From the NCBI GenBank assembly GCA_001003705.1, contig LCPQ01000008.1, forward strand, positions 1 through 33,179: a stretch of DNA of 33,179 nt. Direction: 5' to 3'. A model generated the notes under the pieces. It saw nothing but the letters and a program-made list of their open reading frames with translations, was not told the origin of the DNA and searched no databases. This DNA comes from Parcubacteria group bacterium GW2011_GWA2_48_9 (GTDB lineage: Bacteria > Patescibacteriota > Patescibacteriia > UBA10025). Shown here piece by piece: positions 29,735 to 33,121 of this stretch; the stretch's first letter is position 1; each line of letters starts with the position of its first letter. Position numbers and translations under genes: made by a program.

Positions 29735-30274
29735 ATGACACAACGACGAATGTACCTCGATGAATATCCGTATTTTGTGACCTTCCGAACAAGGGTTGAT
29801 TTACGGTTGTTTGAGGATGAGGAGTATGCGGAATTGTTGGCAAAAATTATGTTCAACGCGGGCCGGTTAAAACAGTACGACATATTGGCATACCAAATCA
29901 TGCCGACCCATGTTCATTTGTTGGTTTTTCATAATAACAATTCGACCGCGCCCACGGAGAGGCGCGTTCCGGGGATTTATAAACCAAACCCAACGCGGGA
30001 CTCCGCGCCCGCGGTGGGGAATGAAAATTATACCATTTCCCAATTCATGTACACGGTTAAATCGTATTTTGCAAAAGTGTTACGTGTGAAATATGGTATT
30101 CCTTATTCCATCCTCTAACCCCGTTTCTATACCCGCATCGTTGATACTCCCAAATACCTCCGCACCGTCGTCGAATACATCCGGTTCAATCCCGATAAAA
30201 CAAATTTGTCAGAAAAATACAGCCGCGTCCCGTACCAGTTTATTGATGGTGAGAAAATTAACCAGCTATTGTAA
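29735..30274 (+). pseudogene. REP-associated tyrosine transposase (Y1_Tnp/RAYT), disrupted by in-frame TAA
   Basis: The N-terminal part (to 30118) has YFVTFRT and the HUH motif MPTHVHLL. SQFMYTVKSYFAKVLR follows, with a likely catalytic Tyr. In relatives YSIWQ...FY comes next; here the frame reads YSIL, then TAA (30116-30118), then continues in the same frame with PRFYTRIVDTPKYLRTVVEYI and PYQFIDGEKINQLL to a TAA at 30274. The frame is therefore intact apart from one nonsense codon. A Pro-rich insert of about 28 residues separates the HUH and Tyr parts. It is probably inactive, though a truncated product could be made. Confidence 0.82.
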
Positions 30275-31987: not shown

Positions 31988-32015
31988 CTGTAGGCAGGTT
32001 GTCCTTCGCGCGAGG

Positions 32016-32067
32016 TTGACAATCACTTGACAATTGTATAGTGGTTGGTTTACAATTACTTTACAAT
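32016..32067 (+). promoter_or_regulatory. Four-box operator array over the promoter and start codon of the ATPase regulator
   Basis: TTGACAAT at 32016 and 32027, and TTTACAAT at 32049 and 32060, are spaced 11, 22 and 11 bp apart. All boxes therefore face the same side of the helix. The second box contains a -35 (TTGACA) and the third contains a -10 (TACAAT, 18-bp spacer). The fourth overlaps the ATG. A bound regulator would occlude RNA polymerase. Confidence 0.7.
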
Positions 32068-33121
32068 GCTGACTAAAGAGAAAATACTTCAGGCTGCTAA
32101 GGAAAAGAGGCAAATACGCACTGCCCAGTTTACTCGCGGTTTCGGGGTATCCCGCCAGTATGTGAGCGGGCTTATCCGGTTGCTAGTCGCCTCCGAGCAG
32201 CTGATCAAAATTGGTTCCACCCGTCGTGCGTTTTACGTGCTCCCTACGTACGCCCGTAGGCATCCGGAAATTCTCCCGTCACGCTTTTTGAAAACGTACA
32301 CGAATAAAGGACTGGAAGAACACCAGGTCTTGGCTGAAGTTGAAAAGAAATTCACCGTCGTTAGCCAGCTCAAGGAAACACTCAGGGATATATTCACGTA
32401 CGCGTTTTCTGAGATGTGTAACAATGCCATTGAGCATTCGAGGTCAAAAAGTATTTCTGTTGAAGTTTTCCTCAAAGCCAAAGAGCTATGTTTCATAATT
32501 GATGACGCGGGCATAGGGGTGTTTAGAAACGTTATGAAAAAGAGAAACCTGCGATCGCCGCTCGAAGCCATCCAAGACCTTCTGAAAGGCAAGACCACCA
32601 CCATGCCGAAAGCCCACTCCGGAGAAGGCATCTTCTTTACCTCAAAAGCTGCAGATGAGTTTACGTTAGATAGCTATGGCTACCAGATGATCACAAATAA
32701 TACGATTCCCGACGTGTTTATTCGCCAGGTTCCACGGAGCAAGCGCGGGACGAGAGTAACGTTCAAAATTCGTACGGATTCGAGCCGTCACCTGAGTGAA
32801 GTATTTAAAAGATACGCCGATCTCAAGTCGGAAAGTGGCTATGGATTCGACAAGACGGAAATTCGGGTGAAACTTTTTACTCTCGGAGGCATACATATCT
32901 CGCGGTCGCAAGCGCGCCGCGTTCTTCATGGACTCGAAAAATTTAAGATTATCCTGTTCGATTTTGATAAAGTTACCATGGTAGGGCAGGCATTTGCTGA
33001 TGAAATCTACCGGGTTTTTCACTCAAAGTATCCAGATATAGAATTGAACGCAACGAACATGAATGAAGCGGTGCGGTTCATGGTTATGCACGCTAAGACG
33101 GAAGCAGAGAGAAAAAAGTAA
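32066..33121 (+). CDS. wHTH-HATPase-DUF4325 (STAS-like) regulator
   Basis: The 351 residues carry three domains. A winged helix (about 1-60, FGVSRQYVSGLIRLL) could bind DNA. A GHKL-type ATPase (about 85-255) has an N box SEMCNNAIEHS, G1 IDDAGIG and G2 SGEGIF. A DUF4325 domain (about 275-345) has ILFDFDKVTMVGQAFADEIYRVF, an STAS-like fold. In other bacteria, anti-sigma kinases and STAS antagonists are separate partners; here they are fused to a DNA-binding domain. The ATG at 32066 follows a -10 by 9 nt; the TTG at 32045 is rejected. Autoregulation through the phased boxes is inferred. Confidence 0.88.
   Translation: MLTKEKILQAAKEKRQIRTAQFTRGFGVSRQYVSGLIRLLVASEQLIKIGSTRRAFYVLPTYARRHPEILPSRFLKTYTNKGLEEHQVLAEVEKKFTVVSQLKETLRDIFTYAFSEMCNNAIEHSRSKSISVEVFLKAKELCFIIDDAGIGVFRNVMKKRNLRSPLEAIQDLLKGKTTTMPKAHSGEGIFFTSKAADEFTLDSYGYQMITNNTIPDVFIRQVPRSKRGTRVTFKIRTDSSRHLSEVFKRYADLKSESGYGFDKTEIRVKLFTLGGIHISRSQARRVLHGLEKFKIILFDFDKVTMVGQAFADEIYRVFHSKYPDIELNATNMNEAVRFMVMHAKTEAERKK

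Follow-up and report, generated by a model that had tools for sequence, protein, structure and literature searches.

A phased box array at the start of a winged-helix, GHKL ATPase and STAS-like gene of Patescibacteria, a probable operator for its own product

The protein described here, in which a winged helix is joined to a GHKL ATPase and a STAS-like domain, very probably binds a phased array of boxes at the start of its own gene to control its own production, since nearly every relative carries an array of the same kind at that place. In the window (the whole stretch of DNA analysed, 33,179 bp of contig LCPQ01000008.1 from Parcubacteria group bacterium GW2011_GWA2_48_9), four exact TTKACAAT boxes start at 32016, 32027, 32049 and 32060 on the forward strand, with successive spacings of 11, 22 and 11 bp, all exactly as given in the preliminary description. 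We consider it quite probable that the proposal holds as a whole, i.e. that the array is the operator of its own gene, bound cooperatively by head-to-tail protomers, with autorepression as the outcome and the ATPase and STAS-like domains as the gate. The features of the region are as follows.

32013–32023, forward strand: putative operator unit 1, AGG followed by TTGACAAT; box at 32016–32023, assigned by exact match and by conservation of the slot in homologues
32024–32034, forward strand: putative operator unit 2, CAC followed by TTGACAAT; box at 32027–32034, with TTGACA at 32027–32032 as the likely -35
32035–32045, forward strand: empty slot, one turn of the helix devoid of any box; TATAGT at 32037–32042 is a possible alternative -10
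32046–32056, forward strand: putative operator unit 3, TGG followed by TTTACAAT; box at 32049–32056, with TACAAT at 32051–32056 as the likely -10
32057–32067, forward strand: putative operator unit 4, TAC followed by TTTACAAT; box at 32060–32067, overlapping the ATG
32066–33121, forward strand: gene of 351 amino acids, winged helix-turn-helix (wHTH), GHKL ATPase (HATPase_c_2) and STAS-like DUF4325
32066–32245, forward strand: wHTH, residues 1–60, from an AlphaFold2 model with a pLDDT of about 90 there
32279–32776, forward strand: GHKL ATPase, approximately residues 72–237, SpoIIAB-like, with ExxxN, DxGxG and GxG motifs
32852–33115, forward strand: STAS-like DUF4325, approximately residues 263–350, from a Pfam match, the model and a fold match to RsbS

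The two paired units are 19 bp long each and differ at three positions; the number of differences had been reported correctly, the length of 20 bp had not, and with the preceding GG, which both share, the match extends over 21 bp. A single other exact TTKACAAT is found in the 33-kb window, at 30268 on the opposite strand. In 300 windows simulated with a second-order Markov model of the window, exact boxes numbered about 1.8 per window, and in none did two of them lie within 60 bp of each other. A genome-wide search for paired boxes at 11-bp spacing, which had been proposed as a check, returned the window site as the sole match in its own genome: TTKACAAT-N3-TTKACAAT occurs nowhere else in the 1.26 Mb, with 0 or 1 mismatch, and the reversed-pattern control also gave 0. 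As the paired pattern is unique in the genome and pairs are absent from the simulation, the four-box array is real rather than a product of chance.

Relatives occur on 42 public contigs, mostly with Patescibacteria-lineage labels, and further ones came from related, class and phylum genomes. Of the 381 class genomes, 35 have a homologue of the regulator, in single copy except for one fragmented case. We compared 64 distinct upstream regions, a set that includes two weak matches, probably non-orthologous. The 75 bp next to the start codon hold 159 copies of TTKACAA, the 75 bp beyond them hold 5, and the reversed word is absent from both the proximal and the distal 75 bp. At least three boxes are found in 43 of the 64 regions. 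The 111 successive-box spacings are of 11 bp (52), 12 bp (5), 21 bp (16), 22 bp (34) or other lengths (4), such that 107 fall at 11–12 or 21–22 bp; the boxes are helically phased across homologues. The upstream regions are otherwise dissimilar, and the array abuts the start codon. In homologues with direct arrays the slot corresponding to 32035–32045 is likewise free of a box, and a fourth box at the spacing of unit 4 is present in 17 of 41. Boxes of this kind are missing from one homologue with 51% identity (L055) and are only partial in four distant homologues (L010, L135, L136 and L138). Absence of the boxes upstream of orthologues had been named among the observations that would refute a regulator site; instead, phased boxes are found at the start codon in nearly all relatives.

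The conservation extends beyond the boxes. The bases at positions -2 and -1 of each box are a purine followed by G or C, and before box 2 they are AC, AG, GG or GC in 40 of 41 direct arrays. With two constrained bases preceding each box, the true repeat unit, as read from the aligned arrays, is the 11-bp TRSTTKACAAT, which fills one helical turn. This RS flank was absent from our first search patterns and hence serves as an independent filter. In the 381 class genomes the paired pattern occurs at 24 places, against 3 for the reversed control; 14 of the 24 have the flank, and 13 of these 14 lie at the regulator gene or its fragment. The remaining one belongs to a four-box array (spacings 11, 21 and 11 bp; L063:1469-1577 on G008:C5) before a DUF3800 gene, in an 80% complete genome without a detected regulator homologue. 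In the phylum-wide sample the flanked pair was found in 5 genomes, 4 of which have the regulator gene at that site. In the fifth (L204, G657:C18:46912-46932, minus strand), the flanked pair precedes an ORF that we named by eye as a Phd/YefM-like antitoxin, with a third TTGACAA 19 bp further. A regulon search with the paired pattern in the window's own genome and 13 others gave essentially the self site only. Other chromosomal box pairs were rejected as targets, being mostly AATTTACAAT-type repeats without the RS flank.

The preliminary description placed the boxes over the promoter and the start codon. The overlap is there, but comparison of relatives indicates that the boxes do not simply overlie the promoter: boxes 2 and 3 themselves likely supply the -35 (TTGACA) and the -10 (TACAAT). 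Among the 41 direct arrays, 37 have G as the third base of box 2 and 35 have T as that of box 3, so that box 2 yields TTGACA and box 3 yields TACAAT, and the spacer between the two is 17 or 18 bp in all 41 (18 bp in the window). When box 3 has a G it can itself serve as a -35, with a -10 word usually about 17 bp further (L084, L124, L127 and L126). The K of TTKACAAT is therefore most readily understood as reflecting two roles, those of operator and of promoter hexamer. The ATG at 32066, the conserved start of the protein family, lies 9 nt past box 3, and this distance is 9–10 nt in 25 of 41 direct arrays. A Shine-Dalgarno-like word is present in just 1 of the 64 upstream regions and not at the window gene; with the ATG so close to the -10, this suggests that the mRNA is leaderless or nearly so. 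A promoter made of box 1 and TATAGT or TATAGA has a 17-bp spacing in many relatives, not in all, and 15 bp in the window; we keep it as a possible second option.

That the encoded protein has a winged helix, as first proposed, is borne out by the AlphaFold2 model, in which the N-terminus folds into helices 4–14, 19–26 and 30–42 and strands 47–49 and 56–58. The N-termini of other members match wHTH families, several of them AbiEi_4 in Pfam. The middle domain matches the HATPase_c_2 profile (PF13581) with 31.8 bits against a cutoff of 27.4, its best fold match in the PDB is SpoIIAB (E 8.6e-5), and the ExxxN, DxGxG and GxG motifs are conserved across 32 relatives. For DUF4325 (PF14213) the score is 45.4 bits against a gathering cutoff of 23, all 32 aligned members match, and RsbS is the best solved-fold match of the C-terminal part. 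Where anti-anti-sigma factors carry their phosphorylated serine, the window protein has Q308-A309, an equivalence judged from sequence only; all but two of 32 relatives keep A309, the exceptions having S and G, and there is no conserved Ser/Thr phosphoacceptor at these two positions. Small separate DUF4325-like ORFs at L013:922-1209 and L014:935-1225 do keep the serine (ATQSF); a GHKL protein distantly related to the regulator is encoded at the same loci, which may represent a two-gene form of the system. A standalone HTH ORF (L069, in G253) was set aside, as it sits at the end of one contig while a C-terminal fragment occupies the end of another, and may come from a broken or split gene. A PDB search by sequence and PADLOC returned no match for the protein. 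The window ends 58 bp past the stop codon of the gene; among homologues, no gene neighbours are conserved, the neighbours being varied and ordinary, and the regulator gene is thus likely its own target.

The arrays are of several types, which we assigned by eye before the protein tree was built. Most relatives have TTKACAAT direct boxes with spacings of 11, 21–22 and sometimes 11 bp more. A clade of 12 has TTKACAACTTT-type boxes, the clear members with one or two direct boxes, one inverted box and the -10 in between, and 4 of the 12 being partial; the inverted box of class B arrays is TTGACAACTTT. In a clade of 4, three boxes are spaced 22 bp apart, and in a pair of relatives the boxes read TTGACAAC. 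Mapped onto the maximum-likelihood protein tree, the array types require 4 changes, which is the minimum, against a mean of 17.9 after shuffling. The tree intermixes Nomura-, Azam-, Peregrini-, Uhr- and Yonathbacteria with MAGs labelled as other phyla, although the host labels of some members may be binning errors. As the tree mixes named lineages, array type follows the protein rather than the host, and for the same reason operator and regulator appear to have moved together between lineages. Upstream of one gene (L134, G191:C89) are three boxes, TTGCCAAC, TTGCCAAC and an inverted GCTGGCAA, with the same substitution in all; changed in concert, they offer a natural altered-specificity pair for the regulator family. 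Both this concerted change and the tracking of array types are what one would expect if the gene encoded a binding protein dedicated to the array.

On comparative grounds, these patterns support the initial proposal that the winged-helix protein itself binds the array cooperatively, and a mechanism can be put forward. Each 11-bp unit would be a candidate site for one winged-helix domain. Protomers, all on the same face of the DNA and in head-to-tail order, would bind cooperatively as two pairs split by one empty turn. Since boxes 2 and 3 form the likely -35 and -10 and box 4 covers the start codon, occupancy would exclude RNA polymerase, and the gene would repress itself. A gate on oligomerisation, and through it a link between repression and some signal, is the most likely role of the ATPase and STAS-like domains.

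Winged-helix regulators on direct repeats sometimes activate instead of repressing, and OmpR/PhoB-type direct repeats are often activating. The array might then still be the protein's site but serve activation or a switch, with the ATP-bound form recruiting polymerase, or the upstream pair activating and the downstream pair repressing. The two pairs are clearly separate, and occupancy of the upstream one could leave the -10 free. However, the -35 lies in box 2 and the -10 in box 3, so that even the upstream pair overlaps the core promoter, and class B and C arrays straddle the -10 as well, which makes this variant unlikely. We find it more improbable still that the array is the site of another conserved DNA-binding protein of the host and the gene merely one of its targets. 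The array before the DUF3800 gene would fit that idea, no homologue having been detected in its genome, but array type follows the tree of the regulator across unrelated hosts, and arrays are nearly absent elsewhere in those genomes.

Another reading takes the array for a nucleoprotein site of the centromere or iteron kind, comparable to those of TubRC/ParRC systems or iteron origins, with autorepression by the regulator as a side effect; TubR likewise combines a wHTH with direct repeats upstream of its own operon and autorepression (PMC5016525). With no motor or Rep gene conserved alongside, a single-copy gene among varied, ordinary neighbours and just three or four boxes, we give this very little credence. 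It is equally hard to believe that the boxes are nothing but a strong sigma-70 promoter combined with tandem-repeat slippage: TTGACA and TACAAT do resemble promoter words, but the AAT extension and RS flank are conserved, the third slot is empty, and relatives have inverted and 22-bp-only arrangements.

Arrays of like geometry, with three boxes, are also found in five IMG/VR contigs (L085, L086, L087, L090 and L091), away from any homologue; no regulator homologue was found in phage and plasmid collections or in IMG/VR. At L085:2660-2870 the array is followed by an extended non-coding stretch with strong folding (z -3.6), the two ends of which pair (GTAGGGG...CCCCTAC), and Rfam gave no match in L085 or L086. 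At L090:699-741 the array lies directly 5' of the ATG of a phage terminase large-subunit gene. At L087:13585-13627 (minus strand), three boxes and a fourth, TTGTCAAT, at 11 bp have a terminator-like hairpin on one side and the region of a phage amidase gene on the other. Tandem repeats of 11 bp are frequent in phages, so the counts are no proof of these arrays: three-box arrays number 6 in forward orientation against 8 for the reversed-pattern control, i.e. no excess, and RS-flanked pairs 39 against 22, a modest excess. The empty-slot geometry gave few flanked cases and none in the flanked reversed control. Only the RS flank and the empty-slot geometry thus argue for the phage arrays, which we treat as a lead. 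Two candidates were discarded as pure tandem repeats (L088 and L089) and one as lying inside a coding frame (L092). Perfect 11-bp tandem repeats occur in unrelated phages, namely L088 and four reversed-pattern controls (L094, L096, L100 and L184), e.g. TAACATTTTCT in four copies; in an unrelated phage, four copies of TTTACAATTTT precede an HTH gene and a large ORF. This suggests that one-turn tandem operators may be common in phages. One can imagine a fused, one-protein analogue of the CapK/CapS system discussed below, horizontally mobile in Patescibacteria and with its own promoter as sole chromosomal target, for which the five viral arrays would be decoys or hooks, infection titrating the repressor and raising the amount of protein; we regard this scenario as doubtful.

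To our knowledge, very little is known of transcriptional regulation in Patescibacteria. What our analysis offers is an operator code, open to test, for a family of uncharacterised regulators that is apparently spreading horizontally through these bacteria, as well as a genome-derived example of operator boxes that would double as promoter hexamers. The natural series of geometries (direct, inverted and 22-bp), matched to protein sequence, should help to study how winged helices read phased repeats, and the array gives a DNA-level handle on whether such proteins respond to phages.

The mode of action that we propose is of a known kind. The regulator family and its operator seem not to have been described so far: in the literature searched, the array sequences occur in no paper and DUF4325 in two passing mentions only. 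The direct repeats bound by Mycobacterium tuberculosis PhoP have 7-bp motifs and 4-bp spacers, hence a period of 11 bp, and the protein assembles on them cooperatively, head to tail, into dimers, trimers and tetramers (PMC4832192). The window regulator resembles this OmpR/PhoB-family protein in its winged helix, direct repeats and 11-bp period; unlike in that family, its partner domain is a GHKL ATPase, and inverted arrays also occur. Neither a receiver domain nor Trans_reg_C was matched by Pfam in the window protein or among the families listed for 32 members. BldC of Streptomyces is another wHTH protein that forms head-to-tail cooperative multimers on direct repeats at promoters (PMC5859096), but it is a 68-residue, MerR-like protein with 9-bp units and many targets, whereas here the units are of 11 bp, there is essentially one target, and a large ATPase/STAS part is present.

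The same kinds of domains, HTH, SpoIIAB-like GHKL and STAS-type, are combined in CapK/CapS, where a wHTH repressor dimerises under the control of GHKL and STAS domains in response to DNA damage and where CapS uses its wHTH to repress both its own promoter and the adjacent one (PMC13373217, 2026). However, CapK has the order HTH-STAS-GHKL, as opposed to wHTH-GHKL-STAS-like in the window protein, and it acts with a separate, adjoining STAS-wHTH substrate on short palindromes (TTAA half-sites), in contrast with one protein and long phased direct arrays here. Given the different domain order, the lack of a conserved capS-like neighbour next to homologues and the lack of a conserved phosphoacceptor, we do not file the window protein as CapK or CapS. 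AbiEi antitoxins also autorepress by cooperative binding (PMC7319586), but with inverted repeats and a toxin partner, neither of which is the rule for the present family. TubR, omega and ParR share repeats at their own promoter, where they autorepress by forming a nucleoprotein filament (PMC5016525); by contrast, no partner motor gene is found here, and omega and ParR have other folds. What the window regulator family does have, as do autoregulators that bind phased direct repeats, is phased repeats over its own promoter that are conserved with the gene.
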